A stretch of 64,000 nt of DNA from a virus. Shown in pieces: positions 15,594 through 40,498 of this stretch (within the stretch, counting starts at the first letter, position 1; every line of letters begins with the position of its first letter). The notes beneath the pieces are model-generated. The model was not told the DNA's origin, searched no databases, and worked only from the letters and a program-made list of their open reading frames with translations. The stretch covers positions 62,001 through 126,000 of the IMG/VR virus record IMGVR_UViG_3300032516_000001. One strand, 5' to 3'. Made by a program: the position numbers and the translations under genes.

Positions 15594-16253
15594 TCATCCG
15601 TACATGAGTATCCAATCTGATAAATGATATCTAACAGCCCCGATATTGGTAAATTTTAATCTAATTGGTGAGGTTATTCCGGGTGCGGGTGTATCGATAG
15701 CATCAGCATGAGTAAACGTGTGTCTTGAAGTATACGGAGCAGCAGCATCCACTATTTCCACTAGGAAAGACGCATCAGGGTCAAAATCAAAGAAACTAGT
15801 CGATGGATTATAATTATATAATAATCTACTCGGTGCTGGATGAGATACTACGGCTCCTGGATCAGAATATAGAGTGAACCCGTGAAAATGTATGAGAACA
15901 CCAACAACAGGGGGAGCAACTGCTAATACCATTGGGTTAGTATATACATATCCGGCTGGAAGTACTTCGGTTCTTTTATTTGGACCTAAAAAATACCCAG
16001 ACGAAATTGTCGGATCTATTGCATTTGCAGCGAGCGGATCTAAAAGTTCATCATTAAGAATATTTACAAGATTGGGATGGTATGACCCATAGATACCTAG
16101 TTTATCCGTTATAGCATCGGCTACGACATCCGTCTCTGGATAGATCCCATTCGGAATATCCAATACATATCTACCAGATATTGAGAAATCGAGTGGTTCC
16201 TCATAATATCCACGAATTTTGTTAGTTTGTGTATCAACTAATAATTTGGCCAT
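15594..16253 (-). CDS. small virion structural protein, probably fibre-associated
   Basis: A 219-residue beta-rich protein with no recognised family. It opens with AKLLVDTQTNKIRGYYE, a common start for phage fibre or collar proteins that interpret 'T..n.i.Gyy' strands. It contains Pro/Gly-rich turns and a C-terminal beta segment ending SDWILMYG. The start is supported by GAGGA six bases upstream of the ATG. It sits between a collagen-like fibre gene and the 1537-residue structural gene, so a role as chaperone, adaptor or tip in that fibre is plausible. No signal peptide or enzyme motif is visible. Confidence 0.55.
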   Translation of the reverse strand: MAKLLVDTQTNKIRGYYEEPLDFSISGRYVLDIPNGIYPETDVVADAITDKLGIYGSYHPNLVNILNDELLDPLAANAIDPTISSGYFLGPNKRTEVLPAGYVYTNPMVLAVAPPVVGVLIHFHGFTLYSDPGAVVSHPAPSRLLYNYNPSTSFFDFDPDASFLVEIVDAAAPYTSRHTFTHADAIDTPAPGITSPIRLKFTNIGAVRYHLSDWILMYG

Positions 16254-16362: not shown

Positions 16363-17394
16363 TCAACTTGCTCCTATATAGACTTGATGCACCGTGCATT
16401 TCCATTCAAATGAATTTTGAGTTCCTCCTTCGATACCCGCGCACGTGATCGATAAGCATTTATTTGTGTCATCAACATTTAGCACTACAGTGGCCGCAAC
16501 GAGCGCAGCGTCCGTCGAACCTCCGTCGTAGGCTATTGAACCCACAACGTAACACGTTCCACCCATTTGCTTGACGCCAGATCCAATACTCCATGTGGTG
16601 ACTTTGCCAGCGTCAGTTCCACCAAGGCAGACACCAACGAGTTCAACGGGATCATCGTCTATACTAGATCCATAGAGATAGACTTCAGGTGATGAACCAG
16701 GAGTACCAGCGGGACCAGTGTAACCAGTGACGCCATCAGGACCAATGGGACCTGTGTAACCAGTGACGCCGTCAGGTCCAACAGGCCCGGTGGCTCCTGT
16801 AACGCCATCAGCCCCCTGCGGTCCGGTGGCGCCTGTGACACCGGGCAATCCTTGTGGTCCAGTGGAACCAGTAACTCCAGCAGGCCCTGTAACGCCTGTA
16901 ATACCAGGATCTCCCTGTGGACCAGTTATCCCAGTTATCCCGGGGGAACCTTGTGGTCCAGTGGAACCAGTTATGCCTATCGGACCTGTAACGCCATCGA
17001 TCCCTGTGGCACCTTGAGGACCAGTGGCTCCTGTAATACCATATGGGCCAGTTGATCCTGTAACACCATCAATTCCTGTGGCACCTTGAGGACCAGTGGC
17101 TCCTGTAATACCATCAGCGCCCTGTGGCCCAGTGTAACCTGTGACACCATCTGAGCCAGTAGGACCGGTGGCTCCTGTGACGCCATTGGCGCCCTGTGGC
17201 CCAGTATAACCAGTTACGCCTATTGATCCTGTTGGACCAATAACTCCTGTAACACCTTCAGACCCAGTAGCACCTTGAGGACCGACAGGGCCCGTTGAAC
17301 CGCCACCTCCACCACCAGGAGGCCCTGGTTCACCGATAAGGCTACCAGGTCCTGAAACCAGTGCAGGGTTCACTTCACTAAATGGTCGTGGCAT
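16363..17394 (-). CDS. collagen-like fibre protein
   Basis: A 343-residue protein. A short N-terminal region with a poly-Gly linker is followed by about 200 residues of Gly-X-Y triplets ([16 protein letters not shown] type) and a 110-residue C-terminal globular domain starting [11 protein letters not shown] and ending VHQVYIGAS, with several cysteines. Collagen triplets in phage proteins form stable trimeric fibre shafts, and the C-terminal domain likely drives trimerisation or binds a receptor. Its ATG overlaps the stop of the 885-residue gene (TAATG). The shaft uses the same triplet vocabulary as the 1636-residue protein at 31222-36132, suggesting duplication or recombination between them. 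Confidence 0.88.
16696..17300 (-). repeat. collagen Gly-X-Y coding repeat
   Basis: Degenerate 9-27-base repeats encode [16 protein letters not shown]-type triplets across residues 34-233 of the 343-residue fibre protein. Codon choice varies between copies, so the DNA repeats are imperfect although the protein period is strict. Confidence 0.9.
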
Positions 17395-20051
17395 TAGAAC
17401 ACCGTCCTTTGCGGATTAATTAAATGCCCACGCACTCGATAAACGGCAGCAGATGATGAACTCAGTATTGAATTTAATTGAATAGTATTTTGATCATCGA
17501 ATTCCAGCCAATTGGTTAAAATAACTAAAACTAATGTTCCCTTCCTTCCAATGCTTGGCACATCTTCTGCTAGCTCCATTAAAACTGGGGAAGCTACCTT
17601 ATGCCGTTGTTTAGCTGTGAGGAGGTGACCGAATACAACAGGAGAATAAACTGGCGTTACGCCATCATCGGATTTTGGCCAAAAATGCCGACCATCACCA
17701 TCAGTTACAATATCTGGAGCTGATTTGTAGAGAGTTACGATGGCATCTGGAAAATATGGAACTTTGGCATCTAATTTAATAAAGCCAGTATTTATTCCAA
17801 ATCCGATGATGCTAACTGGATTCGGATTATCCAATCTGGATTCTGGGTATGTCGAAGATGGTAGTAACCCGACTGGAATTTGTGCACTCGGTGATTCAAA
17901 TGGAAATGAATCATCAGGACTACCAGATCCACTTGTTATTACATAAATATTGTCCGGATTAGTTCTTGGTATCAAATGAAGAGTTTCAGGAGCCATGCCC
18001 CCGGATGCAGGCAGTAATGATTGAATAGCTCGAGATTGATAAAATACTTGATATGAATCATCCGGTGGTGGTCCAACCATAGGAAGCGGTCGGTAAGCAT
18101 AATAATTAGCTTGTACCCATGGATAGGGCGGACCTGGTGGTACTGGCAAAGGAAAGGTTAATGTTACTTCAGTGTAAGCGGTATTGAATGTGTAATTTGT
18201 AGTTGGATATGGCGGATTTATGCCGTCAGTAATTAAGATTGGATCAGTTATTTTATCGGGGATATAAATATGAATTCCATCGGTACATATACAAGGGTTT
18301 GCTATCATTTCTATTGTTTTAAGTCTAATGAACGCTTCCCTATGGGGTTTATCTATCGCCCATAAGGTGGAATCTAGACTGAATCTGTTTGCATCAGAAG
18401 TAGCCGTAAACAGAGTAGCATCAACAAGTAGCACAGCACCATATAATGCATCGATATCTGCCGCGCTCGGGGTCCACACAGCATGATCATCAATAACGTT
18501 TCTGGATAATCCATTCCCAGCAGGATATTCAATGGCAACTTCTACGTAAATATCTGTAGTTCCGTTATAACTATAACCTGGGGGGATCAAATTTATAGTA
18601 GCAATATCAATCGGACCGCCAGGTACTGATGCCGAGTATTGAATGTCCGATACGCCAGTTCCAGGAATCGGAGACGCAAGCATGTCAATTTCATTCAATA
18701 ACACAGATTGATCTACTAATCTAACTTTATTTACTGATACAATATTGGTCCCTGCTGGCGCAACAGACAACAAGTTGAAAGGCGCAAACCATAACTTAAA
18801 TGCTGACAAATCAACCTGAACGGAAAGTATCGGCCATACTCCGGGCGGCCACGGAAAATGAAAATGACAAACTATAGTTTCGGTTATGCTTCGATCACTA
18901 AAATATTGGCGGACGCCATCAGTGTTTATTATGCTGTCCTGGACAGACAATGATGTGCCACCAGGACCTGCTGGTATTAAAATTTCGTGCTCTGTGGAAA
19001 GTGAGTTATTAAATATTTGCTGCACAGCTTTTTGAATGGTTTCGCCATAATCACGAGCAGAACCTTTGCGAAGATCCTTAATATCGCTAATAATAATTTG
19101 ATCTGAGAATAATCCGTCAGGTCTATCAGATGCACCGGCTACAATCAGTGCGCCGCCATTTATGTTGGTTGTCCTATCATATGCAGTGTTGTTCCGTCGA
19201 AATACGGCACAGATCGGAATAGCATACATATAGCCATCAACAGTGCCTAAAGCAGCAGCATCAACTGCAGTTCCAGTTCCTGCTGCCCAGAGACCGGCAT
19301 CATTCGTAACTGGGGAATAGGTGTATGCCGTTGGAGTACCATCGGCCCCGGGTCCCGTGAAATCCGATACGGTATTGGCTGTTACTGATGGATCATCTAA
19401 CCCATCCGGGTATGTATTCGGATCGATGCCACCAATTACTCGATATCGATATTGAATTTGAACACGAGCACTTGTTTCAGCAGCCTCGGTTGGATCGATT
19501 AAATCATCTGCGAAATTCGGGGTCGTATCAGGGGATTTAACATTCCCATGTCTAAAAATTAAGCCCCCGGCACTTTTATTTGCTACTGATGGAACAGCTA
19601 ATACAAGTGCTCGCCACACTTCTAGAATGACCAAATCAACTCTGTAACTCCCTATACCCACAGGAGGCATGGGGAGATTTATAATATTGGTAGAAGTAGA
19701 ATCTGAGCATTGAAATTTAAGATTCCAGCCATTAACTATTAAATTCTGCGGACTGATTAAAAATATATTTTCGGCCCCTGGTAATGGGACAGGAAAAGAA
19801 TATGCATTACTAATATCTGGACTATCAAGAAAACCAGGATTTATCCAACAGGATGGTAACTGTCTACTATTGGAAAGTCTTACACCATGATCGGAAGTTA
19901 TCTCACTTCGTAAATTCATCTCCCAGTCAATGACTGGTTTGGTCGTTTGGATAACTACCGATTCAAAGGATTTCTCTTCACCGGAGAATTGATCTCCAGG
20001 CATTCCTTGTGGGAGTTGACTAACACCAATACCAAGGTTCTTGTATGCCAT
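17394..20051 (-). CDS. fibre/baseplate-associated structural protein (paralogue B)
   Basis: An 885-residue protein whose first half matches the 1537-residue protein at 10902-15515: [15 protein letters not shown] corresponds to its 'RPPLDSELN' motif, and both contain [44 protein letters not shown] and [10 protein letters not shown] in order. The second half differs and is beta-rich, ending with a lectin-like or Ig-like strand pattern. It lies directly upstream of a collagen-like fibre gene, with overlapping stop and start. The shared half is probably the part that docks on the baseplate while the variable half carries specificity; this is inference. No catalytic motif seen. Confidence 0.7.
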
Positions 20052-20196: not shown

Positions 20197-20424
20197 CTAA
20201 TCTTCCATTACTGATTCTATTATAGTCTGATCGCAATCCTTAATGGGTCTTTCATTCTGGTTTATGGGATAATCTGACATTTGTCCGCATCTATCACAGA
20301 TTAATACGCCTCCAGTTTCCTGATATGAACTAGTATCGATTTTTATATATATGTCACTCCCGCAATACCTATATAACCGCCATTGATGTGCCATATCTAA
20401 ATAAAGCGACGAGGCGCTGACCAT
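20197..20424 (-). CDS. possible small zinc-knuckle protein
   Basis: A 75-residue open frame with a CDRCG knuckle near residue 43, a lone YRYCG before it and an acidic C-terminus (CDQTIIESVMED). The ATG at 20424 lies in the loop of the hairpin that follows the tmRNA and has no Shine-Dalgarno; ATG at 20394 (MAHQWRLYRY) is an alternative start, also without a clear ribosome site. The composition looks like a real small protein, but expression is doubtful. The 146 bases between its stop and the next gene hold short inverted repeats (for example ATCCGATTCGGAT near 20120-20133) and no gene. Confidence 0.4.
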   Translation of the reverse strand: MVSASSLYLDMAHQWRLYRYCGSDIYIKIDTSSYQETGGVLICDRCGQMSDYPINQNERPIKDCDQTIIESVMED

Positions 20425-20452
20425 TGGGGGGAGGACGGATCAGCGCCTCGTC
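20408..20452 (-). terminator. 13-bp hairpin directly after the tmRNA
   Basis: The arms GACGAGGCGCTGA (20408-20420) and TCAGCGCCTCGTC (20440-20452) are perfectly complementary around a 19-base loop containing CCUCC on the transcript strand. The stem begins one base after the encoded CCA end and is followed by GCTTTATTT. This suits an intrinsic terminator and possibly a 3' processing barrier for the tmRNA. Confidence 0.75.
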
Positions 20453-20791
20453 TGGTGGACCCGGGGGTATCGAAACCCCGTCCGCAAAGTTCCGAATTCG
20501 TCTTCTACGTGCGTATCTGGTGAGACTGCACCAGCACAATATCGCCGAAGCGCGACTCCATCACCTGCTGTTTCTCATCCTATGTCGCAGGAATTCATAG
20601 GACCAGTTCGTGTACTCACGCCAGTAGCACTACTCGAACTCCTCATGCTACCAACGGCGTCACGGTTTCTTAGGCCGCGACGCGAACAGCATTGTCATTC
20701 GCTGCTATTGGTTGCTTGCTTGGTCATGGCAGGGCAAGCACTGCCAGCACGCAGACGTCTTCTTCCCTCCACGTCGAAACCTGTCGGGCCC
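20453..20791 (-). ncRNA. ssrA: tmRNA (transfer-messenger RNA)
   Basis: A complete one-piece tmRNA of 339 nt, read on the minus strand. The 5' strand GGGCCCG (20791-20785) pairs over seven bases with CGGGTCC (20463-20457), including G3-U70, the alanine identity pair. Discriminator A and encoded CCA follow (20456-20453). A D-like segment GGTTTCGAC and a T-arm GGGG-TTTCGATA-CCCC are present. The mRNA part has UAG five bases before resume codon GCG (20702-20700), giving tag ANDNAVRVAA and stop TAA at 20672-20670. Pseudoknot partners are visible: GGCAG/CTGCC with GCTTG/CAAGC before the tag; GTAGCA/TGCTAC with AGTTCG/CGAACT; and TCCTATG/CATAGGA with CCTGC/GCAGG after it. Its known role is to free stalled ribosomes and tag the peptide. 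It begins four bases after an endonuclease gene and looks richer in G+C than its surroundings. Confidence 0.96.
20670..20702 (-). other. tmRNA tag reading frame (ANDNAVRVAA, stop)
   Basis: Ten codons plus TAA inside the tmRNA: GCG AAT GAC AAT GCT GTT CGC GTC GCG GCC TAA. UAGCA immediately precedes the GCG, matching the UAGUC-then-GCA spacing known from Escherichia coli tmRNA. AND start and AA end are usual for degradation tags; the Arg and VAA ending are less common. Confidence 0.88.
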
Positions 20792-20794
20792 TTT

Positions 20795-22564
20795 CTAACA
20801 TAACTTACAATCAAAACCCGAAACAGTTACATTCCGTTTTAACATGAACTTGATTTTTTCTTTACCAAATGACTTGTGATAATTATGCTTATCTGCATAT
20901 TCCTTTTCTTTCATACTCATTTTACATGCCCTGTTATACAATGTCTTCTTGTGTAATATGAACCCGTCTTCCCCGATATAATAATAATCTGGACGAACTA
21001 TTCCTATTTGATCCCAATTTGCAGCTTTGTATATGGTCCCAAAATGACCATAGGTTTTATCAGCGAATGAAACTAGACACACAATCTTACCAAAATTCGG
21101 ATCTTGGAAAATAGACCTGGAAATTCTGGATAGAAACCAAGAAGCGAAATTCTTCTTCTGATATCCAGGGTGTATGCAAAAACGATCAAGTTCCAAAACT
21201 TGTCTCGGATTTATATTCATGGAAGTGGCCACTTCCTCTCGTATTACAGACGAAAACTTACATATGGCAATGCATTGTGATTCAAGAAAAGCCCCGTATA
21301 TTATTTTTGAAGACCTCCCGAAAGCAGCATAATGATATGAGTTTAGGAAATCTACAGCATCACCAGCATTAACTGTAAAAATTCTGATGTCTGATAAATT
21401 GAATTGTTTCTGCTCAATTTCTGGTTCATGGCCGACAATGAAGTTATTGATCTTTGATGTGATGGCATGTGGATTGGAAAATTCATGTTCATACAAATAC
21501 AAAATTCTTGCAGATGGATCAAATTTCTCTAAATAAGTATACTTGGATGCATCTCTACACTGTCTATTAGGCAATGAGTGCCAATATTCCCCTTGACATT
21601 CTATGTATACATTATGATCGGGTAAGAAATAATCAAATAAATATGGCCCGATTGGAACCTGAGATTTATGTTTGATTTGCACACTATTAAGAATTAACTC
21701 AGTAATTTTCTCGATAGACGATTTTCTACCCATTTGAGCAGATCGGATCTTACCCATTTTTTCTCGAAATTTATCATCTTTCCATAATTCCTTACTTTGC
21801 AATATCTTCAATTCTCTATATTCCGGATCTTGCCATCTTCTCTTCAATCCAGAAACCACGGAATCTCTATATTCTGAATTATTCCATTTATTTTTTGCTG
21901 CTTTACAAGCTTTTATCTGAAATTCTGGATCTTGCCATTTGGTCTTAGCTATATTCGATAATTTAGTTTTATATTCTTCGGTCCGCCAAAGATCTTCGTA
22001 GTGTTTTCTATACTCTGGATCTTGCCATCTATCTTTTTGAAGCGTTTTTTGATGATCTTTATACCCTTCCCTTTGCCAAACCGATTTCTGTTGTTTAGAT
22101 TGATTATCTCGATATTCTTCATTTTGCCAAATCAGTGTTTGTTGTTTGGATTGATTATCTCGATATCCTTCTCTCTGTACAACTAACTTTTGTTTTTCTG
22201 ATTGTCCTGTTCTAAATTCTTTTGTTTTAAATTTTCTTTGATTTTCTATATATTCCGGAGTCTGCCACAAGTCTTTTTTTACTTTGATCTGATTTTCTCT
22301 AAATTTCGGATTTTCCCATAGTTCTTTAGTTCTATCAGACAATTGTTTTCTTCGTTCATCAGTATATACACGTTTCCTATTACACACACTGCATAATAAA
22401 ATACCACGTCTTTTAAGTCTCGCTTTTAAGCACAGAATTGATGTTATGATTGTGACATCACAATCATAACATCTTATTATAACATTTGATGAGTTATTCT
22501 GAGGCTGGCCAAACTGTGCTAAGGTCAAATCCCAAACAATATGTTCTTTTATATTTAATTCCAC
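20795..22564 (-). CDS. homing-type protein: repeats, Vsr-like nuclease and Mom-like acyltransferase
   Basis: A 589-residue multidomain protein with a GTG start and no clear Shine-Dalgarno. Residues 32-61 carry CYDC and CSVC, a zinc-finger-like pair. Residues 81-268 are about eleven copies of a 17-residue repeat with core W-x-(D/N)-P-E-(Y/F)-R (Trp at 83, 100, 146, 163, 180, 193, 210, 227, 244, 261), like linkers of phage homing endonucleases. Residues 283-330 (IEKITELIL, FDYFLPDHNVYIECQGEYWH) look like a Vsr/EDxHD endonuclease core. Residues 392-545 (VLELDRFCIHPGYQKKNFAS, VSFADKTYGHFGTIYKAANW) match the GNAT-type Mom-like domain linked to DNA base modification. It is probably a mobile nuclease or a modification-linked nuclease. 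It abuts the tmRNA by four bases, as free-standing homing genes often sit beside a conserved target. Confidence 0.75.
   Translation of the reverse strand: MELNIKEHIVWDLTLAQFGQPQNNSSNVIIRCYDCDVTIITSILCLKARLKRRGILLCSVCNRKRVYTDERRKQLSDRTKELWENPKFRENQIKVKKDLWQTPEYIENQRKFKTKEFRTGQSEKQKLVVQREGYRDNQSKQQTLIWQNEEYRDNQSKQQKSVWQREGYKDHQKTLQKDRWQDPEYRKHYEDLWRTEEYKTKLSNIAKTKWQDPEFQIKACKAAKNKWNNSEYRDSVVSGLKRRWQDPEYRELKILQSKELWKDDKFREKMGKIRSAQMGRKSSIEKITELILNSVQIKHKSQVPIGPYLFDYFLPDHNVYIECQGEYWHSLPNRQCRDASKYTYLEKFDPSARILYLYEHEFSNPHAITSKINNFIVGHEPEIEQKQFNLSDIRIFTVNAGDAVDFLNSYHYAAFGRSSKIIYGAFLESQCIAICKFSSVIREEVATSMNINPRQVLELDRFCIHPGYQKKNFASWFLSRISRSIFQDPNFGKIVCLVSFADKTYGHFGTIYKAANWDQIGIVRPDYYYIGEDGFILHKKTLYNRACKMSMKEKEYADKHNYHKSFGKEKIKFMLKRNVTVSGFDCKLC
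21761..22324 (-). repeat. 17-residue WxDPEYR coding repeats
   Basis: About eleven imperfect 51-base units encode residues 81-268 of the 589-residue protein, each with a Trp (or Phe/Val) followed by a D-P-E-Y-R-like core. One unit spacing is 13 residues instead of 17 (Trp 180 to 193), which marks a small deletion. Confidence 0.85.
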
Positions 22565-22583
22565 ACATAACTATACATTCGAA

Positions 22584-23246
22584 CTATGAACTTACGCGCC
22601 AGGTCCATCCAAGAGTACTTGTCGCTGGTTTATTTATAACTTTGAACGTGACGTAATTAACTAATGCGTCTTTCACCCTAACGTCTACAGTTGGATCATA
22701 TAACCCATTAGGTGGTAATATCGGATTTGTAATCGCCATATTCGTATCAATATCGCCGCCAAGTAATCCCATTTCTACCAATGGACCAACCGCTTCTGAT
22801 TCCGCAAATATTGTAGTGTAATCAACTACATTAGTCGGTTTTGCACTAATAGCCCCAAAGCTATCAATAAAATTAGATGTGGCGACTTGCTTGCGTCCTA
22901 TTTCATCATAAAGGGACCGTTGAGTAGGCTGACCGGATGGTGGGTTCATTGGATCCCAACCAACATCGCCGATCCCAACAGCCAAAGCATAAATTCCAAA
23001 TTTTGGCTCCGATACATTAGCCACCACTCCAGATTTCAGGAGCCTGGCAACTAATATACTAGCATCAATAGTAATGACATTCGTTATGTGACCTTGATCT
23101 TGGATTTCTCCGGTTTTCCCATCCCGCATAACCCAAAATACTTCACCTCTAAGTGATGGTATGCGTTCATGGCCATTGAAATGCATATTCATTCTCAAAT
23201 CCGAGTCAACACATTTGCGAATTTGTTCCTTCATCATACTAGTCAT
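22584..23246 (-). CDS. virion structural protein, fibre-associated
   Basis: A 220-residue protein. It contains YALAVGIGDVGWDPMNPPSG followed by QRSLYDEIGRK and then TIFAESEAVGPLVEMGLLGG. This order (a count-like 'vGtG....nP.....tL..Ei.R', then 'f...ea.g...E.GLfg') is typical of a small structural family found near tail fibres of large phages. The likely role is a fibre hinge or tip component. The ATG at 23246 lies just after the stop of the 1800-residue gene; internal ATGs at codons 4 and 5 are possible alternative starts. No signal peptide or catalytic motif. Confidence 0.6.
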   Translation of the reverse strand: MTSMMKEQIRKCVDSDLRMNMHFNGHERIPSLRGEVFWVMRDGKTGEIQDQGHITNVITIDASILVARLLKSGVVANVSEPKFGIYALAVGIGDVGWDPMNPPSGQPTQRSLYDEIGRKQVATSNFIDSFGAISAKPTNVVDYTTIFAESEAVGPLVEMGLLGGDIDTNMAITNPILPPNGLYDPTVDVRVKDALVNYVTFKVINKPATSTLGWTWRVSS

Positions 23247-36991: not shown

Positions 36992-39900
36992 TCACACCTT
37001 TTTGTACGTAATTGTTAAATCGCCAGGTGTCAGATATTCTATTTGAGACGTATCAACGTCCTCATACCCAGTTTCGCCATTCACTACATATGACGCTGAA
37101 AATACATGATCAGATGGAACATCGGGTGGTGTTAATCCGTAATTTAACGATACAACAACCTTATTCGCAGTTCTTCTAATTCTCTCTGTATCTATGTCGT
37201 CCTGAGTGATAAATATTGGAGCTAATGTAGCGTCATCAGAGTATCCATCTATAATTGCCCCGTCTTTACCTATGATCCAAGATCGATTAAGACCATTACC
37301 AATATCTGATAGAGAACTCGCCATTTCTATTTGCAATTCATCCATAAATATACCGTGATGCATGTTATCAGGGCCGCCACCATCCATAGTATTAAATGGT
37401 AATGACTGAGTTAATAAATAAACAGCATTAACAGATTTGCTGAGCGACTGAATAAATTCATAATCGGACGATAAAACCTTATCTCTGATTCGTAATGCCC
37501 CGTCTTTAAGTGAACATTTGGAAAATGGTTGGACAACAAAATCAACGCCGCTCGTGTTATCTATGGTGGCAATAACATCTGACACATGTATGGATCCCCC
37601 AATACCCTTAGAATCAGTCAAAATCGTATATGCTGTTCTAACATTTTGATCTACAGTCGCCTGGTCTTGGTTGGGTTTAAGCTGTACAATAGCCTCAACT
37701 GACATCGGATTTTCAAGAGCTTGCTTAACTAAAGCATCAGCTGTTGTGTGCTTCTGAGCACCAATTCTTGTTTGAAGTTGTTGTAATACGTCATTAATGA
37801 CATACACTATAGTGAAATTCTCATCATGTTGATAATCAACTGATATTGTGGAACCTGTCGGAATATTAGAAGATGTTGTCCTAATTATTTTCACCGGGGT
37901 AGTCTGAGTTCCCGCAATGACTAAATAATCAGGATTCGGGTCATTTGGCCCGTTATACTCTAGCGTTCTATTTTCATCATATATAACTAATGTAAAAGTA
38001 TTGATACCAACAGAGTTAAGTGACTCTTCATATTGTCCTATGACAACATGCTTTTCATCATTAATTTGAATAGAATCACCAGATGGTATTCCATCAACCT
38101 GATTAATAGCAACATAATTACTAGCTCGAGTGCTTTCTCCTTCAAGTAATGGATCTTCAGTTTTATACAAACTGAATCCAGATGCTGGGTTGAGAGTACC
38201 TGATACTTCACCAGTCACAGACGTAATTCTAATGATTGGTTGCTTACTCGCTACAAATTCATTATTACTTCTAAATCTATAATCACCTTCCACGAAGTCA
38301 TCTAACATTGTGGTGGGCTGAGGCAGTATTGTATTTAATTGAATAGTTTGATAATCAACAACTGTCACTCCAGTCAGATCATATGATGCTGTTGGCGTTA
38401 TCGAATGGTTCCTGAATCCATAACCACTATTTGGATCATCCAGCATTTCAGAAATCGGATTAGACTCAGTTAACCTCGAGTCTCTAGCCCTGAATACTAA
38501 ATTGATTGGATCGATAACATCAAATCTAACATTTTTAGCAACTTTGAATTGGAATGCGAATGATTCTGAAATAGTCCTCTCCATTGTGCCTTTAACATAT
38601 ATATCAACTTTCCCACCAATATGCTTTTTACGCACATCATCGTAATCCCGCATCATATCGGAATTACCAGATTCAACAATTCTAGTTTCTAATAGTCCAG
38701 GAGTACCAACAGCCGTTCTCTTATATCCACCAGTAGTTCCAGTGTCTAATGAATAAAGAGTTCTCGATGCATTCTCAGCTAATTCCAGATTGCTTTGAGT
38801 ATCCCGTCCAAAATCGGAAGCTACTTCATTTATTGTTTGAAAACCGTCGGCTCCGGATACCACAGAATCTAATGTTTCGGCAGACAAATTCCCAATCGAG
38901 CCTGCAACATCAGCTACCATCTGAACCCTAACTTCGTATCTCTTAGTTTCTGGATTATAAAATGATGCTGCATTTTGTAATGGCATGGTGGCGGCACCCA
39001 TGGATTTAAATCTTGGAGCAGTAGAATTAGAAGACGATGAAACTATGGCTCCTTGTGCAATAATGAGGTTTTTTACTGGAGTAGTAGTTGTATAGAATGT
39101 TTGATATACAATCGCAGAACGTCTACCAAGACGAGGAACACCGAAGTTACCCGCTAAAGATGTGAATGCTCCATCGACTAGTGACTGGACAGCAGAATCA
39201 CTACTAAGGCTCAATGCGGAACGCAACGATTGTTTGTATGCCGAATTTGCTACAGGGATACTGGTTCCAGTTCTTCCCGGATCATCAATTTGTAGCAATG
39301 CTTCAAAAGATTTAGCTCGATGAACAAAATCCATCAAGAAATATGCTTTTTGAATTTCATTCGCAAATGGTTCGATATGGACTTCCCTGACAGTCGAAGC
39401 AGGGATCAATGCTAAAGTCGGCTGTGCTCTTTGCACTTCATCAATGTAGTCTTGAACAACGAGAGCTTGTTCTCTAATTCTAACTCCTCGAATCGTAGTA
39501 TCAATCGGTAATGGAGATCCTGATACTTCTTGAGAATATCTACTTTCAGTTAATTGTCCGGTTGCTTTATTAAAATAAACGGTTGTTACGACATAAAATA
39601 ATGGAGCAGTTCTATCAACTACACCAAAGGTTTCAGAATTCTGAATGCCATTATCAATTCCGTCATCCCTATTATGACTGAATGTATAAAAATTATTAGT
39701 TAATAGACTACTAACACTAACATTTAATTTGAAATTTGATATTCCGATCAGATCATACGTGGTTATGGAAGAATATTGAGATGTAACCGTTGGATCCAAT
39801 TCACCAGTATCTGTTGGTTGTAATCGAGATGATATAACCAACAAGTTTGTTTGTTGGTTGTTTGGATTTCCTGGTGTTCCAGGAACCGGATTTTGTAGAT

Positions 39901-40471
39901 TGTATGAAACCGCATCCCCAATTGGAAATTCTTCAACGACTGTTTTGGTCGGAGATGCGAATGGGACAGTATCTCTATTAACTCTTAAATACCCACTTTC
40001 TGAGCCACCTTGTCCAGTAGAAGCATATATATTATATCCGGTAACCGTAGTTTGAGAATAATCAGACCAAGATAATTCTATAGAAGATGCATTTCTCTGC
40101 AAGTTTATGCCAGTTGGTGGAGAGATGTATGTTTGAGTTTCAACAGAAGAAATGACATTTGCATTGATAGTAGAAATTGCACTATAGGATCCGGATATAT
40201 CCACAGCCCTCAATAATATTGTGTTTTGCCCTTTTTCTAATTCAAGCCCATTTGGATAAGAGGAAGGGTTTGGAATAGTAAAATTGGGAGGAGATACCAA
40301 CACCAAAGCTGGATCAGATACGAATCCGGCTCCATTGATATTTATTTGGACATCAATTGTATTTGGGTCGATTGTCCCCGTGAATACAAGTCCAGATAAA
40401 TTGGTAGTGATGGTCAGTGCAGAAGTAGTACCTGAACCATCGAAATAATTGATTTGTGGAGCCTGTGCCAT
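36992..40471 (-). CDS. baseplate J-like protein with N-terminal FN3 domain
   Basis: About 1160 residues starting at ATG 40471 (MAQAPQINYF); a TTG three codons upstream is a weaker start. An Ig-like segment is followed by a fibronectin type III domain near residues 115-200 (PPTGINLQRNASSIELSWSD, VTGYNIYAST). The middle carries the baseplate-J core: VQMVADVAGSIGNLSAETLD near 490-520, then GGYKRTAVGTPGLLETRIVE, with the typical 'A...G..GN......i' and 'G...G....g..e.r' pattern. The C-terminal part is wedge-like with LTQSLPFN and a final beta-strand domain. J proteins are core baseplate wedge subunits (T4 gp6/P2 gpJ). The FN3 fusion makes this one unusually long. Confidence 0.82.
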   Translation of the reverse strand: MAQAPQINYFDGSGTTSALTITTNLSGLVFTGTIDPNTIDVQININGAGFVSDPALVLVSPPNFTIPNPSSYPNGLELEKGQNTILLRAVDISGSYSAISTINANVISSVETQTYISPPTGINLQRNASSIELSWSDYSQTTVTGYNIYASTGQGGSESGYLRVNRDTVPFASPTKTVVEEFPIGDAVSYNLQNPVPGTPGNPNNQQTNLLVISSRLQPTDTGELDPTVTSQYSSITTYDLIGISNFKLNVSVSSLLTNNFYTFSHNRDDGIDNGIQNSETFGVVDRTAPLFYVVTTVYFNKATGQLTESRYSQEVSGSPLPIDTTIRGVRIREQALVVQDYIDEVQRAQPTLALIPASTVREVHIEPFANEIQKAYFLMDFVHRAKSFEALLQIDDPGRTGTSIPVANSAYKQSLRSALSLSSDSAVQSLVDGAFTSLAGNFGVPRLGRRSAIVYQTFYTTTTPVKNLIIAQGAIVSSSSNSTAPRFKSMGAATMPLQNAASFYNPETKRYEVRVQMVADVAGSIGNLSAETLDSVVSGADGFQTINEVASDFGRDTQSNLELAENASRTLYSLDTGTTGGYKRTAVGTPGLLETRIVESGNSDMMRDYDDVRKKHIGGKVDIYVKGTMERTISESFAFQFKVAKNVRFDVIDPINLVFRARDSRLTESNPISEMLDDPNSGYGFRNHSITPTASYDLTGVTVVDYQTIQLNTILPQPTTMLDDFVEGDYRFRSNNEFVASKQPIIRITSVTGEVSGTLNPASGFSLYKTEDPLLEGESTRASNYVAINQVDGIPSGDSIQINDEKHVVIGQYEESLNSVGINTFTLVIYDENRTLEYNGPNDPNPDYLVIAGTQTTPVKIIRTTSSNIPTGSTISVDYQHDENFTIVYVINDVLQQLQTRIGAQKHTTADALVKQALENPMSVEAIVQLKPNQDQATVDQNVRTAYTILTDSKGIGGSIHVSDVIATIDNTSGVDFVVQPFSKCSLKDGALRIRDKVLSSDYEFIQSLSKSVNAVYLLTQSLPFNTMDGGGPDNMHHGIFMDELQIEMASSLSDIGNGLNRSWIIGKDGAIIDGYSDDATLAPIFITQDDIDTERIRRTANKVVVSLNYGLTPPDVPSDHVFSASYVVNGETGYEDVDTSQIEYLTPGDLTITYKKV

Positions 40472-40498
40472 CTGATACAATACGACAATAAGCTCTTA

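Follow-up and report, generated by a model that had tools for sequence, protein, structure and literature searches.

A tmRNA gene directly behind a predicted homing endonuclease gene among the tail genes of a jumbo phage

Background

Does a phage that carries a tmRNA gene among its tail genes possess a working tmRNA, how did the gene come to lie there, and what might it be used for? These questions are raised by a locus in the IMG/VR phage record IMGVR_UViG_3300032516_000001 (241,648 bp, hereafter G000), for which a preliminary description claimed a tmRNA in the middle of the tail-fiber cluster, flanked 5' by a homing-type gene and 3' by a terminator hairpin. The window analyzed in this work is the stretch of 64,000 nucleotides that corresponds to positions 62001-126000 of the record, and coordinates refer to the window unless another record or contig is named. 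Phage tmRNAs as such are already known: PMC4131195 lists their genes in mycobacteriophages and in Bacillus phage G, and huge phages have been found to encode tmRNA and SmpB (Al-Shayeb et al. 2020, PMC7162821). The place of the G000 gene is unusual; in the part of the literature that was covered, no tmRNA was described that adjoins a homing gene within a tail-gene cluster.

Detection and anatomy of the tmRNA gene

ARAGORN and cmscan reported identical ends for a one-piece tmRNA (ssrA) gene of 339 nt on the minus strand (20453-20791), exactly where the preliminary description had placed it without specifying a strand. The covariance score, on which that description had made its case depend, is 106.1 bits for a match to the full length of the Rfam model RF00023 (model positions 1-374; gathering cut-off: 47 bits), and with the E-value of 1.8e-40 a chance match is far excluded. 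With the same model, the tmRNA annotated in Bacillus phage G obtained 67.6 bits. No second tmRNA was found in the whole 241,648-bp record.

The 5' strand of the acceptor stem (GGGCCCG, 20785-20791) pairs in 7/7 positions with the 3' strand (CGGGUCC, 20457-20463), including the G3:U70 pair, and the 3' strand continues into an encoded ACCA (together 20453-20463). The T-arm (GGGGU-UUCGAU-ACCCC, 20464-20479) forms 5/5 stem pairs; its loop has 6 nt (TTCGAT), one fewer than the consensus loop of 7 nt, which shows as a gap in the cmscan alignment. The tag reading frame (20670-20702), delineated by ARAGORN and by the pairing analysis, begins with the resume codon GCG, which follows an AAUAGCA context and starts 2 nt past the UAG, encodes ANDNAVRVAA and terminates with TAA; its end is held in a hairpin with 9/9 pairs (20657-20683). 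The stems of three pseudoknots are fully paired, namely PK1 (UGGCAG/CUGCCA and UGCUUG/CAAGCA, 6/6 + 6/6 pairs, 20717-20746), PK2 (GUAGCA/UGCUAC and AGUUCG/CGAACU, 6/6 + 6/6 pairs, 20605-20651) and PK3 (UCCUAUG/CAUAGGA, 7/7 pairs, with a complementary 5-mer formed by the loop CCUGC and GCAGG, 20564-20602). Thus, the acceptor with G3-U70, the encoded CCA, the UAG-spaced resume codon and the tag frame with its stop had all been recognized correctly, and the claim of pseudoknot partners stands for PK1-PK3, but the PK4 region aligns poorly to the model.

The short T-loop and the poorly aligned PK4, together with the lack of a clear promoter (none of the promoter-like sites at the locus was better than chance), could be taken to mean that the gene is a decaying passenger that recombination has left stranded and that has lost its activity. 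We regard this as very improbable, as the acceptor, the tag frame and the stems of three pseudoknots are intact and the G000 tmRNA outscores that of phage G (106 vs 67.6 bits). A tag-less tmRNA decoy of the DS6A type was ruled out by the presence of the full tag and the pseudoknots. As a separate observation, tmRNA-like genes of only 135-140 nt were found in two jumbo-phage records, G124 (L322:1501-1640, minus strand) and G123 (L323:1501-1635, plus strand, under the Rfam cut-off); they comprise a tRNA-like domain and are too short to hold a full tag and pseudoknot ring as well. In this they resemble the gene reported from mycobacteriophage DS6A, and they are possible decoys.

Tail-gene surroundings

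The large genes around the tmRNA are encoded on the minus strand. Upstream of the locus lie a 220-aa tail-region protein (22584-23246) and giant tail-region proteins, and downstream an 885-aa tail-region protein (17394-20051) and a collagen-like tail fiber protein (16363-17394; phrog tail fiber families and Pfam Collagen). The assignment of the surroundings to the tail and its fibers is based on this collagen-type fiber, a Baseplate_J gene (36992-40480) and phrog tail matches. The terminase model PF03237 had no match in G000, and nothing matched 20300-22600 at the DNA level among isolated phages. A collagen-like giant protein (3960 aa) is encoded at 199684-211566 of the record (L071-L072), where its GC content rises to about 0.5.

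A separate contig, L002, contains the same 5.7 kb at 99.98% identity with the same junction, which argues against an assembly join. This junction, the tail-protein flanks and the related records G001-G003 (see below) place the tmRNA in the phage and not in its host.

Directly 3' of the tmRNA there is a strong terminator-like hairpin on the same strand (20408-20452; -30.5 kcal/mol, z -7.68). The hairpin proposed in the preliminary description is therefore real (z -7.7), but it has only a modest U-run (GCUUUAUUU) and is absent from the list of the terminator scan. Between the hairpin and the 885-aa gene lies a small ORF of 65 aa with CxxC, read from the sequence (20197-20394, minus strand); small ORFs with similar endings follow the homing gene of G003.

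The neighboring homing endonuclease gene

The homing-type gene claimed on the 5' side was identified with more precision: a 589-aa protein is encoded at 20795-22564 on the minus strand, 3 nt upstream of the tmRNA and in the same orientation. Its sequence reveals CxxC pairs at the N-terminus, helical repeats, a nuclease region resembling Vsr/MTES_1575 (a weak Pfam match, E-value 0.025) and, at the C-terminus, a Mom domain (Pfam E-value 4e-20). It matches phrog_3339 (E-value 4e-14) among the phrog homing endonuclease and Mom families, and its predicted structure matches that of phage Mu Mom (8bv8, E-value 1.2e-11). The tblastn search reported distant homologs in isolated Campylobacter and Shigella phages, annotated as Hef-like homing endonucleases, with E-values down to 5e-10 among the matches listed. 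By homology this is a Hef-like homing endonuclease, with predicted cleavage and homing activity. Mom-fused homing-type endonucleases form a widespread family in large phages (20795-22564 of the window and homologs L003-L063), with at least three copies in G003. Near the start of the G000 gene there is a perfect 15-bp inverted repeat (GATGTTATGATTGTG ACAT CACAATCATAACATC, 22440-22473).

The analysis of genomic neighborhood of this family revealed a tmRNA in only one of the 60 loci scanned, L002, which is the window's own sequence, and the pairing must thus be regarded as a single case. A homing gene and tmRNA travelling as a fixed unit was unsupported, as other loci of the family have no tmRNA. 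In other records, an HNH-type gene was read from the ORFs near the tmRNA of G007 and of G010/G012; in G007 it lies between the tmRNA at 207749 and an ORF 2 kb away that by eye resembles IF-3 (205444-205980).

The homing gene SegB of T-even phages co-localizes with tRNA genes and amplifies them, and so defeats a tRNA-cutting defense (PMC13096335). By analogy, the Hef-like nuclease could spread or amplify the adjoining tmRNA as its cargo, for instance as a counter-defense when host defenses damage ribosome rescue. The 3-nt adjacency in the same orientation, the SegB precedent and the nuclease genes near the tmRNAs of G007 and G010/G012 are in line with such a role; however, other loci of this nuclease family lack a tmRNA and the G000 locus has no tandem amplification, and we consider cargo of this kind possible but rather unlikely.

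Position of the tmRNA in related phages

Relatives of G000 were found with the 885-aa protein as a query (G001, 393 kb, and G002, 182 kb) or with the homing gene (G003, 427 kb). The 242 ORFs of G000 include 116 shared with G001, 81 with G002 and 140 with G003. In G001-G003, homologs of the 220-aa protein (55-62% identical) lie beside those of the 885-aa protein (46-48% identical), which allows the junction to be compared: in G001 there is no insert and the genes are 1-2 nt apart, in G002 the junction contains small ORFs, in G003 it contains a homing gene (46% identity) but no tmRNA, with almost unchanged spacing, and in G000 it contains both the homing gene and the tmRNA. The tmRNAs of G001 and G003 are found in another region with common flanking genes, near stop-reading tRNAs. 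The counterpart of that region in G000 (record positions 10.7-19 kb) has one UUA tRNA and no tmRNA.

The location in the tail-fiber cluster is therefore true of G000 but not a trait of this phage group: because the relatives carry their tmRNA elsewhere and G003 has a homing gene at this site without one, the simplest reading is that the position in G000 is derived. The gene may have moved by homing-associated recombination. The tmRNA tree contains too little signal to link the G000, G001 and G003 genes firmly, so the gene may instead have been lost and a tmRNA acquired anew.

Origin, probable host and selection

A comparison with the tmRNAs of candidate hosts, suggested in the preliminary description, points to Myxococcota. 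A pattern derived from the G000 tmRNA retrieved 42 loci from 84,980 species, nearly all of them in Myxococcota or 'delta' bins. As the pattern retrieves almost only Myxococcota, the host is probably a myxobacterium, judging from the tmRNA alone. The GC content is of no help in this assignment: that of the G000 record is 42%, and most myxobacteria are far above this value. The same pattern identified 22 contigs in IMG/VR, many of them longer than 100 kb (for two of the 22, L124 and L133, cmscan did not confirm the tmRNA).

The closest tmRNAs to that of G000 come from other viral contigs (up to 59% identity), and the closest bacterial one is about 55% identical. A recent capture from a sampled host was rejected on these grounds, and the low identity to any sampled bacterial tmRNA suggests that the gene has probably been in phages for a long time. 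The phage tmRNAs have diverged by about 41-47% with their structure kept: G3:U70 is invariant in 19/19 viral and 72 bacterial tmRNAs, and positions 4-6 of the phage acceptor show paired changes on both sides. This covariation around an invariant pair argues for continued selection on the structure.

Two unusual arrangements were seen among the viral sequences. Contigs L151 and L152 (G012 and G010) contain two tandem tmRNA-like genes about 170 bp apart, with the tags ANDNAYAMAA and ANDNAFESFALAA, the first scoring only 41 bits, and a viral contig encodes a permuted (two-piece) tmRNA with the tag ANDNAFLMAA (L135:13106-13397, minus strand).

Divergent tag ends

The phage tags have ANDN in common, and their last residues often differ. 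Of 17 distinct phage tags, 13 have a polar residue, G or P at position -3 or -4; among 37 distinct bacterial tags the number is 3 (Fisher p 9e-7, for tags that are not independent and include some from small viral contigs that may be bacterial). The phage tag end thus differs from the tag ends of the presumed hosts, which offers a lead that proteins carrying the phage tag may be degraded less strictly or in another way. R at -4 was rejected as a phage-only mark, as it occurs in three myxobacterial tags.

From this difference one could propose that the phage tmRNA rescues ribosomes and that its altered tag end escapes the host proteases, so that the tagged products survive. The skew of 13/17 against 3/37 speaks for it, but besides the dependence among the tags and the doubtful origin of some contigs, the three myxobacterial tags share R at -4 with ANDNAVRVAA, the G000 tag still ends in VAA, and drift under relaxed selection accounts for the skew equally well. 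We consider the escape from proteolysis unlikely.

Stop-reading tRNAs

The sole tRNA of the 241.6-kb record, outside the window (L064:15604-15679, record position 15604; Rfam: 64 bits), has the anticodon UUA, which reads UAA. Reassignment of this codon as an explanation for a suppressor tRNA was unsupported, as TAA is the commonest stop of G000 (86 of 205 ORFs). No recoded genes were seen either: most of the in-frame stops among the matches listed fall within repetitive collagen-like proteins, at the ends of genes or in wrong-frame matches.

In several phages such tRNAs lie close to the tmRNA. The two UCA tRNAs of G001, which read UGA, are the two nearest of its 45 tRNAs to the tmRNA (one of 990 possible pairs; L145, 65695-67422), and the single UCA tRNA of G003 is closer to the tmRNA than any other of its 37 tRNAs (75832-80615). 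Bacillus phage G has its tmRNA separated by 55 nt from an annotated UUA tRNA (L319, 411932-412371). A CUA tRNA is the third nearest in G005, 2.4 kb from the tmRNA. In G012 the stop-reading tRNA is far from the tmRNA, and G006, G007, G008 and G015 have a tmRNA and no stop-reading tRNA.

These arrangements, and the fact that the only tRNA of G000 has the anticodon UUA, would fit a module in which this tRNA causes read-through of stops, ribosomes reach the ends of mRNAs, and the phage tmRNA recycles them. Trans-translation is known to handle the read-through that suppressor tRNAs cause (Ueda et al. 2002, cited by PMC3985003). Such a module in G000 is nonetheless doubtful: its tmRNA and tRNA are 66.8 kb apart, four tmRNA-bearing records have no stop-reading tRNA and that of G012 is remote, no gene appears recoded, and G001 and G003 are related to each other. 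The pairing may be treated as a testable proposal, with suppression by these tRNAs predicted from the anticodon. A broader proposal, in which tmRNA phages combine the two features so that the suppressor reads through stops and a tmRNA with an altered tag recycles the run-off ribosomes without condemning their products, appears improbable.

Proposed function

The reading we prefer, and consider likely, is that the G000 gene encodes a working one-piece tmRNA of a contractile-tailed jumbo phage, which probably infects a myxobacterium and would use the SmpB of its host, and that its place in the tail cluster beside the homing gene is secondary. Most likely it serves in ribosome rescue, because the anatomy is intact and G3:U70 is kept in 19/19 phage tmRNAs; expression, charging and rescue are deduced from the gene. 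The further proposals of the preliminary description, rescue during late expression or tagging of host proteins, are conjecture. As tmRNA also occurs in phage records with no or few tRNAs (G008, G015, G006, G013 and G000), it is more than a passenger of tRNA arrays.

In this reading, the tmRNA would be transcribed from the tail-gene strand, trimmed at its 5' end by the host RNase P and charged with alanine by the host AlaRS through G3:U70. The host SmpB and EF-Tu, with the phage tmRNA, would then free stalled ribosomes, adding the tag ANDNAVRVAA. The host SmpB would have to serve, since no SmpB was found in G000, nor in 17 other records (these may be fragments, so the absence is no proof). From a site near stop-reading tRNAs, as in the relatives, the gene would have ended up directly behind the Hef-like homing gene.

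Comparison with known systems

The ssrA genes of Myxococcota, e.g. that of Minicystis rosea (L104), share with the G000 gene the one-piece form, the ANDN start of the tag and the motif GGTTTCGACGTGG; the identity is however about 55%, and the bacterial tags usually end with A[LVMF]AA, whereas the G000 tag ends with VRVAA.

Among phages, Bacillus phage G offers a tag-encoding tmRNA (gp553) in a jumbo phage, with a UUA tRNA in both genomes. Its tmRNA, with the tag AKLNITNNELQVA, belongs to a tRNA array in which the UUA tRNA is 55 nt away, whereas that of G000 is found in tail genes behind a homing gene and encodes ANDNAVRVAA. Complete ssrA genes are also present in Bxz1, Wildcat and other mycobacteriophages (PMC4131195) and in Streptomyces BE phages; these infect other hosts and have dozens of tRNAs, compared with one in the G000 record. 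The huge phages (PMC7162821) likewise have tmRNA in genomes of more than 200 kb, but SmpB is reported among theirs, in contrast to G000 and the 17 other records.

In the nuclease region and the C-terminal part, the Hef-like homing endonucleases known from Campylobacter and T4-type phages are homologs of the G000 protein with 25-28% identity; none of them spans 80% of the query. In T-even phages, SegB and its tRNA genes (PMC13096335) resemble the G000 locus in that a homing-type gene adjoins a translation-related RNA gene; the G000 nuclease is Hef/Vsr-like with a Mom domain, the RNA is a tmRNA, and the arrangement is known here from its genes. With a tmRNA directly behind a homing gene, the known association of SegB-type homing genes with tRNA genes, which serves against host defenses, is extended to tmRNA, and the comparison makes it a testable question why phages carry tmRNA.
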